From the NCBI GenBank assembly GCA_017513125.1, contig JAFWDI010000008.1, positions 1-64,000 on the forward strand: a stretch of 64,000 bases of DNA, written 5' to 3'. This document shows, in pieces, positions 22,965 through 59,364 of the stretch (position 1 is the first letter of the stretch; the number at the start of each line of letters is the position of its first letter). The position numbers and the translations under genes were made by a program. This DNA is from Lachnospiraceae bacterium (GTDB lineage Bacteria; Bacillota; Clostridia; Lachnospirales; Lachnospiraceae). The notes beneath the pieces are model-generated. The model searched no databases. It saw nothing but the letters and a program-made list of their open reading frames with translations, and was not told the DNA's origin.

Positions 22965-25487
22965 ATGACTCATGAACTCACCGAGCCGCAGAAGATCCTG
23001 ATCCGCGGCGCGAAAGTCCATAATCTGAAAAACATCGATGTCGACGTTCCGCTGAACCGGATCGTCGGCATCGCCGGCGTTTCCGGATCCGGAAAATCCT
23101 CGCTCGCGCTCGGGGTCCTCTACGCGGAGGGTTCCAGGCGCTACCTCGAGTCGCTCTCGACCTACACCCGAAGGCGCATGACGCAGGCCGCGCGGGCCGA
23201 CGTCGACGAAGTGCTCTACGTCCCCGCGGCGCTCGCGCTGCACCAGCGGCCCGGCGTTCCCGGGATCCGTTCGACGTTCGGGACCGGGACCGAACTGCTG
23301 AACAGCCTGCGGCTCATGTACTCGCGGCTCGCGTCGCACCGCTGCCCGAACGGGCATTATCTGGCGCCGAGCCTTGCGGTAGCGGCCGGGCAGGATCTGG
23401 TCTGCCCGGAGTGCGGGGAACATTTCTACGCACCGGGCGCCGAGGAGCTCGCGTTTAACAGCCAGGGCGCCTGTGCCTGCTGCGGCGGCACCGGGATCGT
23501 GCGCACTGTGGACGAGACCACGCTCGTGCCGGACGAGTCGCTCTCGATCGACGAGGGCGCCGTGCTTCCGTGGCAGACTCTGATGTGGTCGCTGATGAAA
23601 GATCTCGCCAGGGAGCTCGGCGTCCGGACCGACGTTCCGTTCCGGGAGCTGACCGAAAAGGAGCGGGACATCGTGTTCCACGGGCCGGCCGAGAAGCATC
23701 ACATGATCTACCAGAACCGCACGAGCGGAGCCGCGGGCGAGATGGATTTCACGTATTTCAATGCTGTCTACACGGTCGAGAACGCCCTCGCGAAAGTGAA
23801 AGACGAGAAGGGCATGAAGCGCGTCGAGAAGTTCCTGAAGGAAGATCTCTGCCCGGAGTGCGGAGGCAGCCGGCTCTCGGAGGCCGCGCGTGCCCCGAAG
23901 CTGCGCGGGATCGGGCTGGACGAGGCCTGCCGCATGACGCTCGCGCAGGCTTCGGCGTGGGTCGACGGCGTGCCCGCGTCGCTGCCGGAGGAGATGCGGC
24001 CCATGGCGGAGAGCATCTGCGAGTCGTTCCGCGACGTGGCCCGCAGACTGACGGACCTGGGACTGTCGTATCTGGCGCTCGACCGGGCGGCGTCGACGCT
24101 CTCGACCGGAGAGCGGCAGCGCATGCAGCTGGCCCGCGCGGTCAGAAACCGCACGACCGGGGTCCTTTATGTGCTGGATGAGCCGTCGATCGGCCTGCAT
24201 CCGGCGAATATCGTCGGGCTGAACGCGGTCATGCATGACCTGGTGAGAGACGGAAACTCCGTGCTGCTCGTGGATCATGACACACAGATATTGAAAGAGG
24301 CAGACTGGATCATCGAGATGGGTCCGGGAGCCGGAGCCGGAGGGGGCCGTGTGGTCGCGGAAGGGACCGTGGAAGACCTGAAAGGCCGTGCCGGTTCCGC
24401 GATCGGGCCGTTTCTGGCAGGGACGGCCGGGGTGCGGAGAAAACGCGGGACGGCAGACGCTGCGCTTTCGGACGATGTGTTCGCCGACGGCGTGATCCGG
24501 ATGTCGACCGGAGCCATCCACACGGTAAAGCCGCTCGAAGTGGAGATCCCGAAAGGCAGGCTGACCGTGATCACCGGAGTGTCCGGTTCGGGGAAGACGA
24601 CGATGATTCTGGAGAGCCTGGTGCCGGGGCTCGCGGCATTGACCGCCGGAAAGCGGATGCCCGAACATGTCAGGAACATCGAGGCGGAGGGCATCGAACA
24701 TGTGAAACTGATCGACGCCACACCCATCGGTATCAATATCCGCTCGACTGTCGCAACCTACGCGAACGTGCACGATGAGCTGCGGAAGATCTACGCGCGG
24801 ACGAAGGACGCGAAGGAGCGCGGGCGGAAAGCCGGAGACTTTTCCTATAATACCGGCGATCTGCGCTGCCCGGTCTGCGATGGGACCGGTTCGATCAGCC
24901 TGGATGTGCAGTTCCTGCCGGACGTCGAGATCCCCTGTCCGGAGTGCCGCGGATCGCGGTACTCGAAGGCGGCATACAGTATCCGGTATACGAACAAGGC
25001 CGGCGAGGCGAAGTCATTGCCCGAGCTGATGGATATGGACGTGTCCGATGCGCTGAAGTTCTGTGCGGACATGAAGACGGTCCGGCAGCGGCTGGAAGTG
25101 CTGGACAGCCTGGGGCTGGGTTACCTGACACTGGGCGAGGAAACGCCGAGCCTGTCGGGCGGCGAGGCGCAGCGGCTGAAGCTGGCGAGCGAGATGGGCC
25201 GGCTGCAGACGGATTCGGTCTTCGTGTTCGATGAGCCGACCATCGGCCTGCATCCGCTGGACGTTCAGGCGCTGCTGGGGGTGTTCGGAACGCTGATCGA
25301 AAACGGAGCGACGGTCATCGTGATCGAACATGACCTCGACGTGATCGCGAACGCGGACCGGGTCATCGACATGGGACCGGGCGGCGGAGAGGACGGCGGA
25401 ACGATCGTGGCCGCCGGGACGCCGGAGGAGATCGCGGCGTGCGCAGAGAGCGTGACGGGGCGCTTCCTGGCGGAGCGGCTCGGCTGA
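22965..25487 (+). CDS. UvrA-like ABC ATPase (UvrA2-type paralogue)
   Basis: 840 residues, about 100 shorter than canonical UvrA. Both ATPase halves are present: Walker A GVSGSGKSS near residue 37 and GVSGSGKTT in the second half, signatures LSTGERQRM and LSGGEAQRLKLA, Walker B VLDEPSIGLHP and FDEPTIGLHP. Zinc-type CxxC pairs remain (CPECGEHF, CACCGG, CPECGGS, CPVCDG, CPECRG). The shorter length and the missing parts of the UvrB- and DNA-binding insertions point to the UvrA2 class, which has been linked to DNA-damage or antibiotic tolerance rather than core repair. It lies beside a cupin and not beside uvrB or uvrC. A bidirectional terminator follows. Confidence 0.88.
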   Translation: MTHELTEPQKILIRGAKVHNLKNIDVDVPLNRIVGIAGVSGSGKSSLALGVLYAEGSRRYLESLSTYTRRRMTQAARADVDEVLYVPAALALHQRPGVPGIRSTFGTGTELLNSLRLMYSRLASHRCPNGHYLAPSLAVAAGQDLVCPECGEHFYAPGAEELAFNSQGACACCGGTGIVRTVDETTLVPDESLSIDEGAVLPWQTLMWSLMKDLARELGVRTDVPFRELTEKERDIVFHGPAEKHHMIYQNRTSGAAGEMDFTYFNAVYTVENALAKVKDEKGMKRVEKFLKEDLCPECGGSRLSEAARAPKLRGIGLDEACRMTLAQASAWVDGVPASLPEEMRPMAESICESFRDVARRLTDLGLSYLALDRAASTLSTGERQRMQLARAVRNRTTGVLYVLDEPSIGLHPANIVGLNAVMHDLVRDGNSVLLVDHDTQILKEADWIIEMGPGAGAGGGRVVAEGTVEDLKGRAGSAIGPFLAGTAGVRRKRGTADAALSDDVFADGVIRMSTGAIHTVKPLEVEIPKGRLTVITGVSGSGKTTMILESLVPGLAALTAGKRMPEHVRNIEAEGIEHVKLIDATPIGINIRSTVATYANVHDELRKIYARTKDAKERGRKAGDFSYNTGDLRCPVCDGTGSISLDVQFLPDVEIPCPECRGSRYSKAAYSIRYTNKAGEAKSLPELMDMDVSDALKFCADMKTVRQRLEVLDSLGLGYLTLGEETPSLSGGEAQRLKLASEMGRLQTDSVFVFDEPTIGLHPLDVQALLGVFGTLIENGATVIVIEHDLDVIANADRVIDMGPGGGEDGGTIVAAGTPEEIAACAESVTGRFLAERLG

Positions 25488-25541
25488 CCGGATGAAGAGC
25501 GGCCGCACGGGATGCGGAAACGGAAGAAAACCGAAGTAAAG

Positions 25542-25574
25542 AAAAAGAGAAGGAACCGCGTTCCTTCTCTTTTT
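25542..25574. terminator. bidirectional terminator between the uvrA paralogue and the tRNA pair
   Basis: A perfect 14-bp stem (AAAAAGAGAAGGAA with TTCCTTCTCTTTTT) around a CCGCG loop; T-runs on both strands serve the gene from the left and the tRNAs from the right. Confidence 0.95.
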
Positions 25575-25575
25575 A

Positions 25576-25659
25576 TGCGGGTGGCCGGGCTCGAACCGGC
25601 ACGGTGTCGCCACCGAGGGATTTTAAGTCCCTTGCGTCTGCCAATTCCGCCACACCCGC
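25576..25659 (-). tRNA. tRNA-Leu, anticodon UAA
   Basis: On the minus strand the 7-bp acceptor GCGGGTG/CACCCGC closes a class II tRNA with a D arm (TGGCGGAATTGGCAGAC), anticodon stem GGGAC and loop CTTAAAA (anticodon TAA), a long variable arm and a GGTTCGAGCC T arm. The 3' CCA is not encoded. It is second in a two-tRNA unit. Confidence 0.96.
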
Positions 25660-25806
25660 GATTCGTCGTGAGGAGGGGCCCGCGGCGCTGGCGCCGTGGG
25701 AGGAGTCCTGACGACAGGGCTCCGTTCGCGCAAAGCGCGAATGGAGTGTTCTCAGCCAACTGGCGAGCTGATGCAATGAACAGGGGTAAGCCCCGCACAT
25801 TATCGA

Positions 25807-25879
25807 TGGACCCTCGGGGATTCGAACCCAGGACCGACCGGTTATGAGCCGGCTGCTCTAACCGCTGAGCTAAGGGTCC
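25807..25879 (-). tRNA. tRNA with anticodon CAU, probably tRNA-Ile2 (lysidine type)
   Basis: On the minus strand, acceptor GGACCCT/AGGGTCC, D arm TTAGCTCAGCGGTTAGAGCA, anticodon stem-loop GCCGGCTCATAACCGG, and T arm GGGTTCGAATCCC. The loop CTCATAA and the GGACC start resemble the Bacillus tRNA-Ile2 that carries lysidine, and differ from elongator Met (TTCATACC) and initiator Met. A naive caller would label it tRNA-Met. CCA is not encoded. The 147-base spacer to tRNA-Leu contains a strong hairpin at about 25727-25753. Confidence 0.85.
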
Positions 25880-25895
25880 CAATGCAATCCAAAAC

Positions 25896-25924
25896 AGTTT
25901 ATCACAGCGTTCAAAAATACGCAA
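25896..25924 (-). promoter_or_regulatory. promoter of the tRNA pair
   Basis: Minus strand TTGCGT (25924-25919), 17-base spacer, TAAACT (25901-25896). The start would be near 25889, ten bases from the tRNA-Ile2 5' end. It diverges from the rpoB promoter. Confidence 0.55.
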
Positions 25925-25934
25925 CAATTCTTTC

Positions 25935-25963
25935 TTGACACCCCTATACCTCAGTGATAAAAT
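25935..25963 (+). promoter_or_regulatory. rpoBC promoter
   Basis: Consensus TTGACA (25935-25940), 17-base spacer, TAAAAT (25958-25963). The leader of about 115 bases contains an imperfect hairpin (GACA...GGCA/TGCC...TGTC) followed by six T near 26018-26023, which could attenuate transcription. Confidence 0.9.
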
Positions 25964-26085
25964 CTTTAGGCACTTATGGTGGAGACATGTACGCCGCAGG
26001 CAAATTATGCCCGTGTCTTTTTTGTGTCGCCATTCGTACATTTTCCAAATTAATACAGTTTAATTTTACTAAGGGTGAGGTGTCC

Positions 26086-29889
<3,804 letters not shown>

Positions 29890-29969
29890 GGATCCCGCCG
29901 CGCCGGCCGGCGTGAGACCGGCGCACCGCGTCACCGAAAACCGTTCTGTCCATATATAAGGAGGGTAAC

Positions 29970-32900
29970 ATGCCCCAGACGATAGAGAAAAACAACGCCA
30001 TTAACTTCGACTCCATCCGCATCAGCCTGGCCAGCCCCGAGAAGATCCTCGAGTGGTCCCGCGGCGAGGTGAAGAAGCCGGAGACGATCAACTACCGCAC
30101 GCTGAAGCCCGAGAAGGACGGCCTGTTCTGCGAGCGCATCTTCGGACCGAGCAAGGACTGGGAGTGCCACTGCGGAAAGTATAAGAAAGTTCATTATAAG
30201 GGCATCATCTGCGAGCGCTGCGGCGTCGAAGTCACGAAGGCGAACGTCCGCCGCGAGCGCATGGGCCACATCGCTCTCGCGACGCCCGTGTCGCACATCT
30301 GGTACTTCAAAGGCATTCCGAGCCGCATGGGCCTGATCCTCGACATCTCCCCGAAGGTGCTCGAGCGCGTGCTGTATTTCGCGAGCTACATCGTGCTGGA
30401 TCCGGGCGAGACCGATCTGGCTAAGAAGCAGGTCATGACCGAGCGCGAGTACCGCGAGGCCCGCGAGCAGTACGGACATAACGCGTTCCGCGCCGGCATG
30501 GGCGCGGAGGCCGTCCGCGAGCTCCTGGCAGAGATCGACCTTGACGACGAGTACGAGAAGCTGAAAGAGGAGATGGAGAACTCCTCCGGCCAGAAGCGCG
30601 CGCGCATCGTGAAGCGCCTCGGCGTCGTCGAAGCCTTTAAGAATTCCGGAAACCGCCCGGAGTGGATGGTCATGACCATCCTCCCGGTCATCCCTCCGGA
30701 TCTGAGACCCATGGTGCAGCTGGACGGCGGCCGTTTCGCGACCTCCGACCTGAACGATCTGTACCGCCGGATCATTAACCGCAATAACCGTCTGGCCCGC
30801 ATGCTGGAGATGGGCGCTCCGGACATCATCGTCCGGAATGAGAAGCGCATGCTCCAGGAGGCGGTCGACGCCCTGATCGACAACGGCCGCCGCGGCCGCC
30901 CCGTGACCGGTCCCGGAAACCGCTCCCTGAAGTCCCTCTCCGACATGCTGAAGGGTAAGCAGGGCCGCTTCCGCCAGAACCTTCTGGGTAAGCGCGTGGA
31001 CTACTCCGGCCGTTCCGTTATCGTCGTCGGACCTGAGCTGAAGATCTACCAGTGCGGTCTCCCCAAGGAGATGGCGCTCGAGCTCTTTAAGCCGTTCGTC
31101 ATGCGCGAGATCGTGAGCCGCAAGATGGCCCATAACATCAAGAGCGCGAAGAAGATGGTCGAGCGCATGGACCGCACGGTCTGGGATATCCTCGAGGACG
31201 TCATCCAAGAGCACCCGGTCATGCTGAACCGCGCGCCCACCCTGCACAGACTGGGCATCCAGGCGTTCGAGCCGATCCTGGTCGAAGGCAAGGCCATCAA
31301 GCTGCACCCGCTGGTCTGTACCGCGTTCAATGCAGACTTCGACGGAGACCAGATGGCGGTCCACCTGCCGCTGTCCGTGGAGGCGCAGGCCGAGTGCCGC
31401 TTCCTGATGCTCTCCCCGAATAACCTGCTGAAGCCTTCGGACGGCGGTCCCGTGACCGTTCCTACGCAGGATATGGTCCTGGGCATCTACTACCTGACCC
31501 AGGAGCGCCCCGGCGTGACCGGCGAAGGCAAGTACTTCCGGAACCTGAACGAGGCGATCCTGGCCCACGAGAACGGCATGTGCGACCTTCACGCGCGGAT
31601 CCACGTCCGCATGAAGGGCACGGACGCCGAGGGGAACGCGGTCACCCGCATCGTCTCTTCGACGCTGGGCCGCTTCCTGTTCAATGAGATCCTGCCGCAG
31701 GATCTGGGCTATGTTGACCGCAGCCTGCCCGGAAACGAGTGCGCGCTCGAGGTCGACTTTATGGTCGGAAAGAAGCAGCTGAAGACGCTGCTTGAGAACA
31801 TCATCAACATCCACGGCACGTTCAAGACCGCCGAGGTCCTGGACGACATCAAGGCCATGGGTTACCACTACTCGACGATCGCGGCCATGACCGTATCCAT
31901 TTCGGATATGATCATTCCCGAGACGAAGGATGAGATCCTGGACGCCGCGCAGGCCGAAGTCGACGAGATCACGAAGAACTTCCGCCGCGGTCTGATCAAT
32001 GAAGAGGAGCGCCACGAGGAAGTCATCCGTGTCTGGGAAGGCGCGGATAAGGCTCTGCTGAACGACCTGCTCGAAGGTCTGGACGCATATAATAACATCT
32101 ACATGATGGCCGACTCCGGCGCCCGTGGTTCGAACCAGCAGATCAAGCAGCTGGCCGGCATGCGAGGCCTGATGGCCGACACGACCGGTAAGACCATCGA
32201 GCTGCCGATCAAGTCGAACTTCCGTGAAGGTCTGGACGTTCTGGAGTATTTCATCTCCGCGCACGGCGCCAGAAAGGGTCTGTCCGACACCGCGCTTCGT
32301 ACCGCTGACTCGGGTTACCTGACCCGCCGTCTGGTCGACGTTTCGCAGCACGTGATCATCCGCGAGGACGACTGCTGCGAGGAGGGCGAGGAGATCCCTT
32401 ACATGGAGATCCGCGCGTTCCGCCTGCCCATTAAGGGCCAGGACGGAAAGATCAGCTATGAGCCGATCGAGATGCTCGACCAGCGCATCACCGGCAGAAC
32501 GATCGCCGAGACCATCGTCGATCCGGAGACCGGCGAGACCGTCTGCGAGGCGAACGAGCTGATCACGCCCGTGAAGGCGCCGAAGGTCATTGCCGCGCTG
32601 GAGAAGCTCGGACGCGAATCCGTGAAGATCCGCACGGTCCTGTCCTGCAGATCCAGAAAGGGCATCTGCGCGGCCTGCTACGGCGCGAACATGGCGACCG
32701 GCAGAGCGGTGCAGATGGGTGAAGCGGTCGGCATCATTGCCGCGCAGTCCATCGGCGAGCCCGGCACACAGCTGACCATGCGTACGTTCCACACCGGCGG
32801 CGTCGCTTCCGATCAGGATATCACTCAGGGTCTTCCCCGTGTCGAGGAGCTCTTCGAGGCCAGAAAGCCGAAGGGCCAGGCGCTCATCTGCGAGTTCGGC

Positions 32901-38324: not shown

Positions 38325-40913
<2,589 letters not shown>

Positions 40914-40952
40914 CGGCGAAGGACCCGCGCCGGGAGCTGAGATAAGATGACG

Positions 40953-40988
40953 GCCCGCCCTGTTCTTTTGCGGAACAGGACGGGCTTT
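40953..40988 (+). terminator. terminator after clpB
   Basis: A GCCCGCCCTGTTC/GAACAGGACGGGC stem with one mismatch, followed by a short T-run. Confidence 0.75.
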
Positions 40989-41000
40989 GTGCATTTTAAT

Positions 41001-41022
41001 GAACAAAAACGAAAACATGTTC
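41001..41022. promoter_or_regulatory. operator copy 1, GAACA-N12-TGTTC
   Basis: An inverted repeat GAACA/TGTTC with a 12-base A-rich centre, ending 8 bases ahead of the -35 box of the binding-protein promoter. Confidence 0.65.
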
Positions 41023-41030
41023 AGAAACTG

Positions 41031-41058
41031 TTGACAATGCCGGGCCCGGGAGTATAAT
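41031..41058 (+). promoter_or_regulatory. promoter of the peptide-type binding-protein gene
   Basis: Consensus TTGACA (41031-41036), 16-base spacer, TATAAT (41053-41058). It is bracketed by operator copies 1 and 2. Confidence 0.93.
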
Positions 41059-41070
41059 GGCGGTATTGAC

Positions 41071-41092
41071 GAACAAAAGATAAAAAATGTTC
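41071..41092. promoter_or_regulatory. operator copy 2, GAACA-N12-TGTTC
   Basis: The same half-sites and the same 12-base spacing as copy 1, placed 70 bases downstream and just after the predicted transcription start. Confidence 0.65.
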
Positions 41093-41165
41093 GATAACAG
41101 ACTGATTTTGAAGTTTGACCCGCATTTGCGGCGGGAATGACCCCGTTGGAAAAGGAGATCACAGG

Positions 41166-42734
41166 ATGAAAAAGAAACTTGCCATGATACTGGCCGGCGT
41201 TCTCGCGGCAGGCATGCTCTTCGCGGGATGCGGCAGAACCGGCGGAAACTCCGCGGACGAGGCTCCCGATCAGGGCAGCGCACCGGCGGCTTCGGCAGAG
41301 ACCGACAGCGCGCCCGCCGCTGCCGGCACCGGCGACAGCATCGTGATCGGCTGCAGTTTCGTCTCCGCGAACACGAACCCGATCGATTGCCCCTGGGAGC
41401 TGACCATGCAGGGCGTCAGCGAAGGCGTCTTCATGCAGAATGCGGAAGGCGAGCTGGTCTCGCGCTTCGTCACGGATATGGAGCGTGAGGAGGACGGCCT
41501 GACCTGGAACCTGGCGCTGACGAACGCGGTGAAGTTCTCCGACGGAAGCGACTGCGACGCGCAGGCGCTGGCAGACTGCATGAACTACATCCAGGCGGAA
41601 AACGCGATCGCGAACGGGACCGCGGGCGTATGTACGTTCACAGCCGCGGACGCGGACACGCTGCAGGTCGTGACAGAGCGCCCCATCACCACGCTGGATT
41701 CGCTCCTGTGCGAGTGGTGCAACGTCGTATTTAAGCAGGTCGGCGACGGCTTTATCTACACCGGTCCCTACATGGTCGACAGCCTGGACTCCGGCGTTTC
41801 GATCCATCTGGTGCCGAACCCCTATTACGATGACCGTGCGGAGCAGCGTTCCGACGTGACCATGATCGTCTTTAACGACGCCGCCGCGCAGCAGCAGGCG
41901 TTCGAGGGCGGCGAGATCGACATGATGTTCGGCCTCTCCCCCGAAGTCGCGCAGATCCTTCGCGGCGAGGGCTTCACGGTCGTGGATTACGACGCGGGAT
42001 ATCAGTATTTCGTGATCAATAACATTGCGGACGGCCCCATGGCCGATCTCGCGATCCGTCAGGCGGTCAGCCAGATCTTCGACCGCGAAGAGATGATCAC
42101 CTACCTCGGCGCGGGACGGGTCGCGACCGGCATGTTCGCGCAGTACTACAGCTTCGCCGGACATGTCGATGAGATCACCGACGTGCCTGCCGCGCAGGCT
42201 GCCCTGGAGGCCGCCGGATATGAGCGGAACGCGGACGGCATGTATGAGAAGGACGGCGAGCCGCTGACCCTGAAACTGGTCACCTACGCCGGCCGGCCGG
42301 ATCTGCCTCTGATCATGCAGATGGCTTCCTCCGAACTGACCGAGGCGGGCGTCACCTGCACGACGGAAGTCGTGGACGACATCGGCGCGGCCATCAGCTC
42401 CGGAGAGTATGACGTGATCTTCTACGCGCATCACACCGCTCCTTCCGGAGAGCCTGCCGCCATCCTGAACATGTATTACTCGGATGAAGGCGTCCAGAAC
42501 TTTTACGGTTATCACAGTGATGAGATCACGGATCTCCTCGCGCAGATCGGCAGCGTGGAGCCCGGCCCCGAACGCGATGCGATCGCGCAGCAGATCCAGG
42601 ACATCGTGGCGGAAGACCTGCCCGTGACTTTCCTGATCGATCCTCAGTGGCACGTGGCGCTGTCCGAACGCGTGGCGGATTACGTTCCGTACTGCGGCGA
42701 CTATTATATCGTCAATGCCGAGCTCGGCCTGTAA
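41166..42734 (+). CDS. peptide/nickel-type ABC transporter substrate-binding lipoprotein
   Basis: 522 residues, starting at 41166 (AAAAGGAG ahead). The signal peptide with lipobox FAGC (Cys near residue 22) is followed by an Asp/Glu/Ala-rich linker and a family-5 solute-binding body: VSEGVFMQNAEGELVSRFVTDMERE near the start and AIRQAVSQIFDREEM in the middle are typical of DppA/OppA/NikA relatives. Ligand is unknown: peptide, nickel complex or other small solute. It has its own promoter and terminator, so it is transcribed apart from the permease-ATPase unit but under the same operator sequence. Confidence 0.88.
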   Translation: MKKKLAMILAGVLAAGMLFAGCGRTGGNSADEAPDQGSAPAASAETDSAPAAAGTGDSIVIGCSFVSANTNPIDCPWELTMQGVSEGVFMQNAEGELVSRFVTDMEREEDGLTWNLALTNAVKFSDGSDCDAQALADCMNYIQAENAIANGTAGVCTFTAADADTLQVVTERPITTLDSLLCEWCNVVFKQVGDGFIYTGPYMVDSLDSGVSIHLVPNPYYDDRAEQRSDVTMIVFNDAAAQQQAFEGGEIDMMFGLSPEVAQILRGEGFTVVDYDAGYQYFVINNIADGPMADLAIRQAVSQIFDREEMITYLGAGRVATGMFAQYYSFAGHVDEITDVPAAQAALEAAGYERNADGMYEKDGEPLTLKLVTYAGRPDLPLIMQMASSELTEAGVTCTTEVVDDIGAAISSGEYDVIFYAHHTAPSGEPAAILNMYYSDEGVQNFYGYHSDEITDLLAQIGSVEPGPERDAIAQQIQDIVAEDLPVTFLIDPQWHVALSERVADYVPYCGDYYIVNAELGL

Positions 42735-42786
42735 GCGCTGTCCCGGGCTCTGACCGGGCCCTGATCAGTACTCACAAATAAAAAGG

Positions 42787-42834
42787 AAAAGGCTGTCGAA
42801 GCGCTCCGGGGGGTCCGCATTCGACAGCCTTTTT
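42787..42834 (+). terminator. terminator between the binding-protein gene and the permease unit
   Basis: Perfect 14-bp arms (AAAAGGCTGTCGAA with TTCGACAGCCTTTT), a 19-base loop and a T-run to 42834. Confidence 0.93.
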
Positions 42835-42854
42835 CGCCTCAGCCACAGGTTTAT

Positions 42855-42876
42855 GAACAAATGCACATTTTTGTTC
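42855..42876. promoter_or_regulatory. operator copy 3, GAACA-N12-TGTTC
   Basis: A third copy with identical half-sites and spacing but a different centre. It overlaps the -35 region of the permease-unit promoter, which suits repression. Confidence 0.65.
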
Positions 42877-42886
42877 GAAAACATTG

Positions 42887-42892
42887 TATAAT
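42887..42892 (+). promoter_or_regulatory. -10 box of the permease-ATPase unit
   Basis: A perfect TATAAT with no good -35; the place where a -35 box would fall is covered by operator copy 3. The ATG follows 73 bases later. Confidence 0.7.
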
Positions 42893-42965
42893 AAAAAGGC
42901 TGCCGCGGCATCCGCCCGGCGGCCGCGAATGGATCCGCAACTTTCCGAAACCACAGGAGCTTCGC

Positions 42966-43892
42966 ATGAATAAAGCCGTCCGGTTTATCATCAAATGGCT
43001 GATCGTCTTTTTTGCCGCGTCGATCCTCATCTTCCTGCTCGTGCGCATGATGCCCACCACGCCCGCGGTCAAATGGCTGGACACGCTTCACCTGCCGCGC
43101 ACGGAGGCGAACATCGAGTGGATCACGCACCGGATGGGACTGGACCGGCCGCTGGCCGTGCAGTACGGCATCTGGATGCGGAACTTCTTCCGCGGCGACT
43201 GGGGCGTGTCGCTGGTCTCCGGCGAGGACATCCGCGCGCGTTTCTTCGCGAAGATGCCTTACTCGTTCTCCATCGGCATCTCCGGCATCCTGATCGGTTC
43301 GGCGGCGGCGTTCTTTCTGGGCTTCCGTGCCGCGCTGCGCCGCGGCGGGATCTGCGATAAGATCACGACTGTTCTGACGATCTTCTCGCAGAGCGTTCCC
43401 ATGTTCATCCTGTCCATTATCATTATCAATGCCCTGGGCGTGCGCCTCCGCATCGCCCGCTTCTTCACCGGCGACGGAAAATACGCGATGCTCGCGGCCA
43501 TCCTGCTCACCGCTTTCTACAGCGTAGGCAGCCTGTCGCGCATCGTGCGGCAGGGATTCCGCGAGGAGATGGGGAAGAGCTATGTGAAGTTCGCGGTCTC
43601 GCGCGGCTTTTCGAAGGAGACCGTTCTGTTCCGGCACGCGTATAAACCCGTGCTGGCGGGCCTGATCTCCGCGGTCATCAGCCACTTCGCCTACGTCTTC
43701 GGCGGCAGCACCGTGCTGGAGTTCGCGTTCACGATCCCCGGCCTGTCCACGATGCTGGTCTCCGCCATGGACAGCCGCGACTATAACATCCTGCAGGTCT
43801 ACATCCTCGTGGTCGTCATCTGGATGTTCTTCGTACACCTGGTCCTGAACCTGGTGCTTCGGGCACTGAATGTAAGGGGGCAGGAGTCATGA
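42966..43892 (+). CDS. peptide/nickel-type ABC transporter permease 1 (DppB/NikB-like)
   Basis: 308 residues, six predicted membrane helices, binding-protein-dependent permease fold. N-terminal FIIKWLIVFFAASILIFLLVRMMPTTP is the family's first helix plus signature loop, and the segment with EEMGKSYVKFAVSRGFSKETVLFRHA is the EAA-type coupling loop that docks on the ATPase. The start at 42966 fits the family; an upstream ATG at 42861 lies within the operator/promoter and is not used. The gene overlaps the second permease by four bases. Confidence 0.92.
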   Translation: MNKAVRFIIKWLIVFFAASILIFLLVRMMPTTPAVKWLDTLHLPRTEANIEWITHRMGLDRPLAVQYGIWMRNFFRGDWGVSLVSGEDIRARFFAKMPYSFSIGISGILIGSAAAFFLGFRAALRRGGICDKITTVLTIFSQSVPMFILSIIIINALGVRLRIARFFTGDGKYAMLAAILLTAFYSVGSLSRIVRQGFREEMGKSYVKFAVSRGFSKETVLFRHAYKPVLAGLISAVISHFAYVFGGSTVLEFAFTIPGLSTMLVSAMDSRDYNILQVYILVVVIWMFFVHLVLNLVLRALNVRGQES

Positions 43893-44683
43893 AGAAGAAG
43901 ATCATCCTCTGGGCGGTCTTTGCCGCCATCGTGCTGTTTCTGTTCCTCGCGCCGCATCAGAACGTGCGGCTGGTGGACATTGCCCACACGTTCGCGGGTC
44001 CCTCCGCGGAGCACTGGTTCGGCACGGATAATCTGGGCCGCGATCTCTGGTCGCTGATGGTCGTCGGCGGCATCCGGTCGCTGGGCGTCGTGGGGCTGGC
44101 CACGGCCATCTCGTTCTCGCTGGGCACGCTCCTGGGCATGGCGGCGGCCTATGAGGGAGGGATCCTCGCGACCGTCATCCAGTTCGTCACGGACTTTACG
44201 ATGATCGTGCCTTCGTTCATCGTCGCGCTGATCCTGTCCGCGCTGTTCGGCTTCTCGCCGGTCATGGCGGGACTGATGTTCGGCATCGGGAACATGGGAT
44301 CGTATGTGAATCTGTCCCGCGGGCTCACGCTGGGCATGAAGGAGCGGGACTTCATCAGCGCCGAGATCAGCCTGGGCCTGTCGAAGCCGCGGATCGTGTT
44401 CCTGCACATCTTCCCGAACATCATGAAGCAGATGTTCGTCTACATGGGAAACCACGCGAGTTCGGTCACGCTCCAGTACGCCGGCCTGGCATTCATCGGC
44501 CTCGGCACGGACATCACGAACCCGGACTGGGGCACCCTGCTGTACTCCTACCGGCTGTACATGCTGACCTACCCGCGGCTCGTGATCATCCCGATCGCGG
44601 CGGTGTGCCTGCTGGCGCTGTTCTTCCATTTTGCTTTCGATGACGGAAGCGCGGGAAAGGAGGAACTGACGATCTATGACTGA
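43889..44683 (+). CDS. peptide/nickel-type ABC transporter permease 2 (DppC/NikC-like)
   Basis: 264 residues, the shorter DppC-type partner permease. It has WFGTDNLGRDLWSLMVVGG, a hallmark of this subunit, and a coupling loop MKERDFISAEISLGLSKPRIVFLHIFPN. It starts at the ATGA overlap with permease 1 and ends eight bases inside the first ATPase gene, so the four transporter genes are translationally chained. Compared with most DppC proteins it lacks the long N-terminal cytoplasmic extension. Confidence 0.92.
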   Translation: MKKKIILWAVFAAIVLFLFLAPHQNVRLVDIAHTFAGPSAEHWFGTDNLGRDLWSLMVVGGIRSLGVVGLATAISFSLGTLLGMAAAYEGGILATVIQFVTDFTMIVPSFIVALILSALFGFSPVMAGLMFGIGNMGSYVNLSRGLTLGMKERDFISAEISLGLSKPRIVFLHIFPNIMKQMFVYMGNHASSVTLQYAGLAFIGLGTDITNPDWGTLLYSYRLYMLTYPRLVIIPIAAVCLLALFFHFAFDDGSAGKEELTIYD

Positions 44684-45626
44684 GCAGATCAGAGACACGT
44701 CCCCGGCGCGCGAAGAGATTCTCCGCGTCGAAGGGCTCTGCGTCCGGATGCTGGACGGCAGGAAAGAGACGCAGATCCTCCACGATATTTCCTTTACGAT
44801 CCGCGAGGGCGAGCACTGGGCCATCGCGGGCGAGTCCGGAGCGGGAAAGAGCATGACCATGAACGCGATCACCGCGCTGCTGGCGGACGGCAGCACCCGG
44901 ATCAGCGGGCGGATCCTGTACCGGCAGCCGGACGGCTCCTGGCAGGATCTGCTGGAGATCCCCTATAAAAAACGTTCGGCATTCGTCGCGAAGCAGGCGG
45001 CGGTCATCTTCCAGGATTCGATCAATGCCCTGAACCCGAACGAGCGCGTCCTGCGCCAGTGGAGCGAGACCGTGCGGCTGAACGAGCCCGGCATCACGAA
45101 GGAAGACTGTCTGGCGCACCTGCTCGAGCGCATGGAGATCTTCGGCGTGCGCGGCGGGGAGGAAACGCTGCGGAAGTTCCCGCACCAGCTCTCCGGCGGC
45201 ATGCGGCAGCGGATCGCGATCGCGATGGCGCTGGAGTCGCCGGCGCGCATCCTGATCGCGGACGAGCCCACGACCTCGCTGGACGCGATCACGCAGCGCA
45301 GCACCGTGGATTTCATCGGGAAGCTGTGTGACGACACGGACCGCACGCTGCTTTACATCAGTCATAACCTCGGCATCCTGCAGTATCTGTGCGACCACAT
45401 GATGATCCTGAAGGACGGGCGTGTGGTCGAGCAGGGGCTGACCGAAGATCTGTTCTTCCGCGGGAAGGAAGAGTATACGAGGCAGCTCGTGCGCGAGACC
45501 GTGAAGATCATGGGAAATGAGGACAATGTCCCGGAGCTCTTCGCGCATAAGTCCGCCGCGGATACGCAGACCGCGGAGCCGGATGAGCGGCCGGCAGACC
45601 GTGACGGAGAGGAGGCGCAGGCATGA
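44676..45626 (+). CDS. peptide/nickel-type ABC transporter ATP-binding protein (DppD-like)
   Basis: 316 residues with Walker A GESGAGKS near 50, signature LSGGMRQRIAIAMALE, Walker B ILIADEPTTSLD and an H-loop in YISHNLGIL. It pairs with the second ATPase encoded directly downstream (four-base overlap). Past the ATPase core is an Asp/Glu-rich tail where most relatives carry the oligopeptide C-terminal domain with a Cys cluster; that cluster is not visible here. Confidence 0.93.
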   Translation: MTEQIRDTSPAREEILRVEGLCVRMLDGRKETQILHDISFTIREGEHWAIAGESGAGKSMTMNAITALLADGSTRISGRILYRQPDGSWQDLLEIPYKKRSAFVAKQAAVIFQDSINALNPNERVLRQWSETVRLNEPGITKEDCLAHLLERMEIFGVRGGEETLRKFPHQLSGGMRQRIAIAMALESPARILIADEPTTSLDAITQRSTVDFIGKLCDDTDRTLLYISHNLGILQYLCDHMMILKDGRVVEQGLTEDLFFRGKEEYTRQLVRETVKIMGNEDNVPELFAHKSAADTQTAEPDERPADRDGEEAQA

Positions 45627-46468
45627 ACGGACCGAACATGAGTGCAGCCAAAGACCGCGTTCCGGTCCTTCGGGTGCGCGATCTGTCGAAACATTTCCGG
45701 CAGTCCGGCGGAAGCGGCGGGCTGACCGCGGCCGGCCGGAAAAACACGCTCGCCGCGGTCGACGGCATCAGCTTCGACCTTTACCGGGGCGAGATCCTGG
45801 GACTTTTGGGCGAGTCCGGCTGCGGGAAGACGACGCTGGCGCGGATGCTGATGCATCTGATCGCTCCGAGCGGCGGGACGATCGTTTTTGACGGCGAAGA
45901 AGTGCAGAACATGCCGGAGCGGCAGTTTCGGAAGCGCCGCGGAAAGATCCAGATGGTATTCCAGAACCCGTTCGACTGCCTGGACCCGACCAGGCGCATC
46001 CACGGCCTGCTCGAGGAGTCGATGAAGATCTGGCATCCGGAGATGCGCGCGGACGAGCGCCTCGAACGCATCCGGACCATGCTCGCGGAGTGCGGGCTCG
46101 GCGAGGACAGCCTGAAGAAGCATCCGAAGGAGTTCTCCGGCGGACAGCTGCAGCGCATCTCGATCGCGCGGGCACTGCTCGCGGAACCGAAAGTGCTGGT
46201 GGCGGACGAGATCGTGTCCGCGCTGGACGTGCCCATCCAGAACCAGATTCTGCAGCTGCTTCTGAAGATGAAGGAAGAGCACAGCCTGACCGTGCTGTTC
46301 ATTACGCACGACCTGTCGGTCGCACGGAAAGTCTCGGATCGGGTCATGGTCATGCAGGACGGGCGGATCAAGGGCATCGGGACGCCGGACGAAGTGCTGG
46401 AAGGCTCGGAGGATCCGTATATCCGCGAACTGGCGCGGGCCGTGTTTACGTTCGCGGGCGAGGGCTGA
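45623..46468 (+). CDS. peptide/nickel-type ABC transporter ATP-binding protein (DppF-like)
   Basis: 281 residues with Walker A GESGCGKTT near 67, signature FSGGQLQRISIARAL, Walker B VLVADEIVSALD and the H-loop FITHDLSVA. The Walker B tail DEIVSALD replaces the common DEPVSALD. The start overlaps the previous gene; an MNGPNMSAAKD lead-in precedes the domain. It ends the transporter unit and is followed by a promoter-terminator overlap that sets the start of the hydro-lyase genes. Confidence 0.93.
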   Translation: MNGPNMSAAKDRVPVLRVRDLSKHFRQSGGSGGLTAAGRKNTLAAVDGISFDLYRGEILGLLGESGCGKTTLARMLMHLIAPSGGTIVFDGEEVQNMPERQFRKRRGKIQMVFQNPFDCLDPTRRIHGLLEESMKIWHPEMRADERLERIRTMLAECGLGEDSLKKHPKEFSGGQLQRISIARALLAEPKVLVADEIVSALDVPIQNQILQLLLKMKEEHSLTVLFITHDLSVARKVSDRVMVMQDGRIKGIGTPDEVLEGSEDPYIRELARAVFTFAGEG

Positions 46469-57602: not shown

Positions 57603-57689
57603 ATTTCAGTTTAGATGTGCATATCTAGTGGAGAAGACCGCACATGGAGACACTGTAAAACAGGCACTCTTTACGGAGGTATAAACGGA

Positions 57690-57835
57690 GACCTGTTAGC
57701 GCCAGGACCGGGAACGGTTGACGAGGTCGGCAGTCATCGAAAGACTCGGCGGATGCTGCCGCGGCTCACGCGCATGAGTCGTCAGGGGAGAAGGAAAAAG
57801 CGAAATCGACATCGTAACAGAGGTCTCCCCGCATT
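57690..57835 (+). ncRNA. glmS self-cleaving ribozyme (GlcN6P-responsive)
   Basis: Core words of the glmS class appear in order: TTA|GCGCC (cleavage expected between A57698 and G57699), GGTTGACGAGG (57716-57726), then GGCAG...ATCGAAAGACTCGGCGGATG...CTGCC, i.e. the conserved catalytic core around a 5-bp stem. A P3-type GGCTCA/TGAGTC hairpin and a closing stem GGGGAGA/TCTCCCC (57785-57791 with 57824-57830) follow. Family knowledge: glucosamine-6-phosphate acts as the cofactor for cleavage, and the cut mRNA is degraded. The next start codon is 26 bases after the structure, with AAGGAGAA in between. No glmS gene lies in this window. Confidence 0.96.
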
Positions 57836-57861
57836 GCGACTTTTTAAGGAGAACACTGCGA

Positions 57862-58572: not shown

Positions 58573-59364
58573 ATGAGAGTTGTCATTCAGGATAATTACG
58601 AGAAGATGTGCAAGTGGGCCGCGGACTACATCGCCGCGAAGATCCGCGCGCATAAGGAAGACCGTCCCTTCGTGCTGGGTCTGCCCACGGGCTCCTCGCC
58701 GATCGGCGTCTATCAGGAACTGATCCGTCAGAATCAGGCGGGCGAGCTCAGTTTCGCGAACGTCGTCACGTTTAACATGGACGAGTATCTGGGGCTGCCG
58801 CACGAGCACGACCAGAGCTACTGGTACTTCATGCATGACACGTTCTTCGATCACCTGACCGACATGAAGCCGGAGAACATTAACATTCTGAACGGCATGA
58901 CCGACGATCCCGAGGGCGAGTGCGCCCGCTACGAGGAGAAGATCGCGTCCTACGGCGGGATCGACCTGTTCATGGGCGGCATCGGCGTGGACGGCCACCT
59001 GGCGTTTAACGAGCCCTACACTTCGCTCTCGTCCCGCACCGGCGTGCGCGACTTGACCACGGACACGCGCATCGTGAACAGCCGCTTCTTCGGGGGAGAT
59101 CCCGAGGCGGTGCCGGCGAAGGCACTGTCGGTGGGCATCGGTACCGTGACGGACTCGAAGGAGGTCCTCGTGCTGATCTCGGGCCATAACAAGGCCCGCG
59201 CACTGGCCGCGACCGTCGAGGGCGGTGTGAGCCAGAAGTGGACCTGCTCGGCGCTGCAGCTTCATAACGCGGCGATCATCGCCTGCGACGAGGAAGCCTG
59301 CGGCGAGCTGACCGTGGACACGTATAAGTATTTCCTGGACATCGAGCGGAGCCAGAGACTATAA
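58573..59364 (+). CDS. nagB: glucosamine-6-phosphate deaminase/isomerase (NagB)
   Basis: 263 residues, NagB family, close to the 242-266 usual length. LGLPTGSSPIGVYQELI near residue 35, the NMDEYLGLP segment with the catalytic Asp (near 69-76), and GIGVDGHLAFNEP (near 140) with the His/Asp/Glu set of the active site. The enzyme interconverts GlcN6P and fructose-6-phosphate plus ammonia; normally catabolic, it is reversible. Here it lies between an acetyltransferase and GlmM under a GlcN6P-sensing ribozyme, with no nagA in sight, so a synthetic role is plausible. 12 bases separate it from glmM. Confidence 0.95.
   Translation: MRVVIQDNYEKMCKWAADYIAAKIRAHKEDRPFVLGLPTGSSPIGVYQELIRQNQAGELSFANVVTFNMDEYLGLPHEHDQSYWYFMHDTFFDHLTDMKPENINILNGMTDDPEGECARYEEKIASYGGIDLFMGGIGVDGHLAFNEPYTSLSSRTGVRDLTTDTRIVNSRFFGGDPEAVPAKALSVGIGTVTDSKEVLVLISGHNKARALAATVEGGVSQKWTCSALQLHNAAIIACDEEACGELTVDTYKYFLDIERSQRL

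Follow-up and report, generated by a model that had tools for sequence, protein, structure and literature searches.

Putative TetR-type operators at a cobalt/nickel-type importer locus of a Lachnospiraceae bacterium, in place of a cobalamin riboswitch

A 64,000-nucleotide stretch of a Lachnospiraceae genome (the window) carries an ABC importer locus with two transcription units, and three copies of one palindromic site lie at the two promoters. Predicted TetR operators here stand where all examined orthologues of the importer have a B12 riboswitch. Judged from sequence, the three sites probably are operators of a TetR_C_8 (DhaS-like) regulator, most likely the homologue encoded on C14 of the same genome, that would shut off both units. 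Transporters under a TetR-type operator are a known kind of system; the apparent exchange with a riboswitch and the predicted operator of a TetR/P-type ATPase pair would set this one apart. No description of such a TetR/P-type ATPase operator was found in the part of the literature that was covered.

All the transporter genes lie on the plus strand. The first unit is the gene for a substrate-binding lipoprotein (SBP_bac_5, NikA/Opp-type; 41166–42734). The permease unit encodes two permeases (NikB/Opp-type, 42966–43892, and NikC/Opp-type, 43889–44683) followed by two ABC ATPases (NikD/Opp-type, 44676–45626, and NikE/OppF-type, 45623–46468). With one SBP_bac_5 protein, two BPD_transp_1 permeases, and two ABC ATPases, the locus resembles NikABCDE. 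The best models for these genes are nickel-type, yet all score below the NCBIfam curated cut-offs; against the nickel equivalogs, the first three genes reach 229, 193, and 156 bits where the cut-offs are 600, 350, and 300. The genome also differs from those with a NikABCDE–NikR system in encoding no NikR. The transporter appears to be a cobalt/nickel-type ABC importer, and cobalt is its presumptive substrate because the orthologues carry cobalamin riboswitches. The initial annotation had framed the locus in terms of nickel or peptides, a framing that can now be sharpened: a riboswitch on every orthologue points to cobalt- or B12-linked uptake.

The binding-protein gene is preceded by a promoter (41031–41058, plus strand) that matches the consensus at all 12 positions: TTGACA at 41031–41036; a 16-bp spacer; and TATAAT at 41053–41058. 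The leader is short, at about 100 nt. Between this gene and the permease unit lies an intrinsic terminator (42785–42835, plus strand), as the initial annotation had proposed; with a fold of −34.2 kcal/mol (z −6.7), it is real. The permease promoter, as read from the sequence, has a TATAAT −10 element (42887–42892, plus strand) and no recognisable −35 element.

Exact copies of GAACA-N12-TGTTC are found at positions 41001, 41071, and 42855, with 0.03 copies expected by chance in the window; the identical half-sites and spacing originally reported for these three positions are thus confirmed. When spacers from 4 to 23 were tested across the window, GAACA and TGTTC were found paired with a spacer of 12 only. 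Each core is part of an extended palindrome common to the three sites, TT-N3-GAACA-N12-TGTTC-N3-AA. The core of site 1 (40996–41027, core 41001–41022) ends 8 bp before the −35 element of the binding-protein promoter, and that of site 2 (41066–41097, core 41071–41092) starts 12 bp after the −10 element, so that the two sites bracket this promoter, just as had been proposed. Site 3 (42850–42881, core 42855–42876) lies over the place where the permease promoter would have its −35 element, with the TATAAT downstream, again in keeping with the original description. Such an arrangement would suit a repressor. The suggestion that only the half-sites are under selection does not hold: the three sites agree fully in TT at −5/−4, GAACAAA, TGTTC, and AAC at +4 to +6. 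A fourth exact copy (44416–44437), which the initial annotation did not list, lies within the gene for permease 2 and probably is a coding coincidence.

The initial annotation had predicted a small regulon, common to two promoters of one transporter, and had proposed a genome-wide scan for the motif. That scan covered 2.23 Mb in 36 contigs (87% complete). It returned ten exact copies, whereas the backwards control returned none. Sites 1 to 3, all at the transporter locus, are the only non-coding copies; the other seven (that at 44416 and six on other contigs) are coding. Near-matches that were checked are nearly all coding, with one intergenic (L066). In the absence of other intergenic exact copies in the genome, the prediction of a small regulon is supported.

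Related sites in other genomes point to the protein partner. A search of 397 genomes of the same family for the extended site gave many hits in fliQ coding sequence and some that were hairpin-like; the hits adjacent to TetR genes were taken further. Three copies, all intergenic, have a TetR-family gene next to them (L151, L156, and L166). With the TetR proteins beside the site in relatives as query, one clear homologue was found in the window's genome (C14:164564–165106, minus strand; E 3.6e-27), which contains TetR_N and TetR_C_8 domains, matches the query over its full length, and is 43–55% identical to the relatives' group. The next best TetR protein in this genome matches over partial length (E 2.6e-17). 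The initial annotation had spoken of an unknown dimeric repressor. A dimeric repressor remains plausible, but it need no longer be called unknown, since this TetR_N/TetR_C_8 protein is a candidate.

Another 29 of the 397 genomes encode homologues of the C14 protein (E 1e-20 or better), and the site recurs at many of their genes. Within 200 bp upstream of the 29 starts, the exact core is found in 5 and a core with at most one mismatch in 20; shuffled sequence gives expectations of 0.014 and 0.27, respectively. The commonest mismatch is TGTAC, and the palindrome takes the form TT-N3-GAACA-N12-TGTWC-N3-AA. The TetR genes with the site encode TetR_N and TetR_C_8 domains and belong to other genera of the family. 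A heavy-metal (CPC) P-type ATPase, typically divergent from the TetR gene, is encoded at 21 or more of the 30 TetR loci. A second element, RAACA-N3-TGTTC with at most one mismatch, is present in 24 of the 30 TetR upstream regions; across L186–L215 this conserved element sits some 110 bp before the TetR start, towards the divergent gene.

A weight matrix was then available from the 20 relatives' sites only, the window's genome being excluded. Over the 64-kb window it ranks site 2 first (25.6), site 3 second (23.6), and site 1 third (21.7), and the next score is 6.9, the value obtained for the copy at 44416. This ranking bears on whether the sites are chance inverted repeats in AT-rich intergenic DNA. 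If a 5-bp arm and a spacer of 0–25 are left free, 11 of 3000 shuffles of the two intergenic regions do give three or more copies. However, the extended palindrome is identical in all three sites, and ranks one to three under a matrix made from other genomes refute the chance reading for practical purposes; its probability is negligible.

A second TetR subgroup has the same site upstream; in L156 the neighbours are a MoxR/VWA pair, and in L166 a MinD/CooC-like ATPase. In L171 (4004–6486) and L172 (4073–9117), this subgroup is seen with the GAACA-N12-TGTTC site and with MinD/CooC-like ATPase, DUF3786, and MoxR/VWA genes adjoining; the TetR proteins carry a cysteine motif, CP..CSYPFC or CP..CTYPFC.

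The existence of this subgroup means that a TetR-type protein other than that of C14, or one encoded in the missing 13% of the genome, could be the regulator. The window's genome carries no fewer than five related TetR genes. The N12 palindrome found upstream of the relatives' TetR genes is missing from the promoter of the C14 TetR gene, which adjoins an EamA permease instead of a P-type ATPase. Yet the C14 protein is alone in matching the query along its entire length, and the second element singles out its gene: RAACA-N3-TGTTC occurs 15 times in the genome, 14 times in coding sequence, and the only intergenic copy sits in the C14 TetR promoter, which also contains two direct CGAACAAA half-sites. 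A different TetR regulator therefore seems rather unlikely. A regulator that acts as an activator, at least at the permease promoter, is likewise rather unlikely. It would account for a promoter with a good −10 element and site 3 in the place of a −35 element, and it has a precedent in SczA of Streptococcus pneumoniae, a TetR-family metal regulator that activates czcD. On the other side, the full-consensus binding-protein promoter has a site on each flank; this layout, in which one site lies past the start, suits repression.

Known metal or SOS regulators such as NikR or LexA are very improbable owners of the sites. The transporter is Nik-like, and GAAC/GTTC half-sites resemble the LexA boxes of Gram-positive bacteria. 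However, no NikR_C domain is encoded in the genome, which speaks against NikR. The sites do not have the GAAC-N4-GTTC core of LexA; with a spacer of 12 only in the window, their spacing is wrong for LexA. LexA-like hits in the family, beside uvrB, have different flanks (AGTACA..TGTACT). The PurBox of Bacillus subtilis PurR was also considered; PurBoxes are spaced further apart. As a separate observation, a LexA-like long palindrome, AGTACAGAACAAA-N8-TTTGTTCTGTACT, lies upstream of uvrB-like genes in several genera of the family (L120, L121, L124, and L138).

The C14 TetR protein, the favoured regulator, resembles known proteins in part. Its best NCBIfam model is the DhaS-type TetR (TIGR02366; E 9.8e-19), but it scores 68 bits against a cut-off of 129 and has no dihydroxyacetone kinase context. 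Its relatives in the PDB are 2iu5 and 4mk6. SczA, the closest described analogue, shares with the relatives' TetR proteins membership of the TetR family and an adjoining metal exporter gene, and responds to Zn, Co, and Ni; this likeness is drawn from published descriptions of SczA, and the paper examined gives no binding motif. The two differ in that SczA is a reported activator of a cation diffusion exporter gene, whereas the partner of the relatives' TetR is a P-type ATPase and the target in the window is an ABC importer.

Comparison with orthologous loci supplies the evolutionary setting. Loci with the same gene order and permeases 55–72% identical were compared in genomes outside the window's genus: L041–L045, and one in G232 (L048/L054). 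Since L041 and L042 nearly duplicate each other, these six loci represent five distinct lineages. In each locus the binding-protein gene is preceded by a cobalamin-type riboswitch, RF00174 for L041–L045 and RF01689 for L054. No cobalamin riboswitch was detected at 40900–43000 of the window, even at a relaxed E of 5, and no operator of the GAACA-N12-TGTTC type was found near the transporter promoters of the six orthologous loci. Footprinting of the transporter itself therefore lends no support to the sites. Three cobalamin riboswitches are present at other loci of the window's genome, so this genome has not lost the B12 riboswitch system. At L055 (G000:C32:18000–34000), beside larB/larC/larE-like genes, a cobalamin riboswitch precedes a paralogous nickel/peptide-type ABC operon; another importer of metal type is thus still under B12-riboswitch control in this genome.

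Control of cobalt importers by B12 riboswitches is established (PMC7689651). The orthologues of the window's transporter share a cobalamin-type riboswitch with CbtJKL of Sinorhizobium meliloti. The window copy differs in having DNA operators and no riboswitch, and CbtJKL is reported to be BtuF-like, not NikA-like.

These observations suggest a model for control of the importer. The C14 TetR protein would occupy sites 1 and 2, on either side of the binding-protein promoter, as well as site 3, where the permease promoter has its −35 region. Bound TetR would block RNA polymerase and thereby turn both importer units off together; release of TetR by a ligand would turn both on. Binding, repression rather than activation, and a metal or metal-linked ligand are what we infer; a metal is suggested because the relatives' TetR loci neighbour P-type ATPases. 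Joint control of both units by TetR, as a repressor, probably replaces B12 feedback through RNA. A more tentative scenario, possible but held with less confidence, is that a TetR metal sensor, paired with a P-type ATPase in relatives, captured a cobalt/nickel importer from the B12-riboswitch regulon. End-product (B12) feedback through RNA would thereby have given way to control of two promoters by a protein, one of these promoters having arisen anew behind the terminator.

The orthologous transporters would provide a clean case of regulatory exchange, from riboswitch to DNA operator. An importer that is under B12 in relatives is apparently under TetR here, and the cell may now respond to the metal or some other signal rather than to the cofactor. 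The analysis also predicts an operator and a regulator for a widespread TetR/P-type ATPase pair, and the operator should be usable for regulon assignment in many uncultured relatives.

Two further features were noted in passing. A glmS ribozyme/riboswitch (RF00234, 70 bits) lies at 57687–57840 of the window. Regions near 58602–64479 of G000:C27 and near 24953–30830 of G000:C28 (L007 and L008) contain the same stretch in opposite orientation, reflecting either a repeat or redundancy in the assembly.
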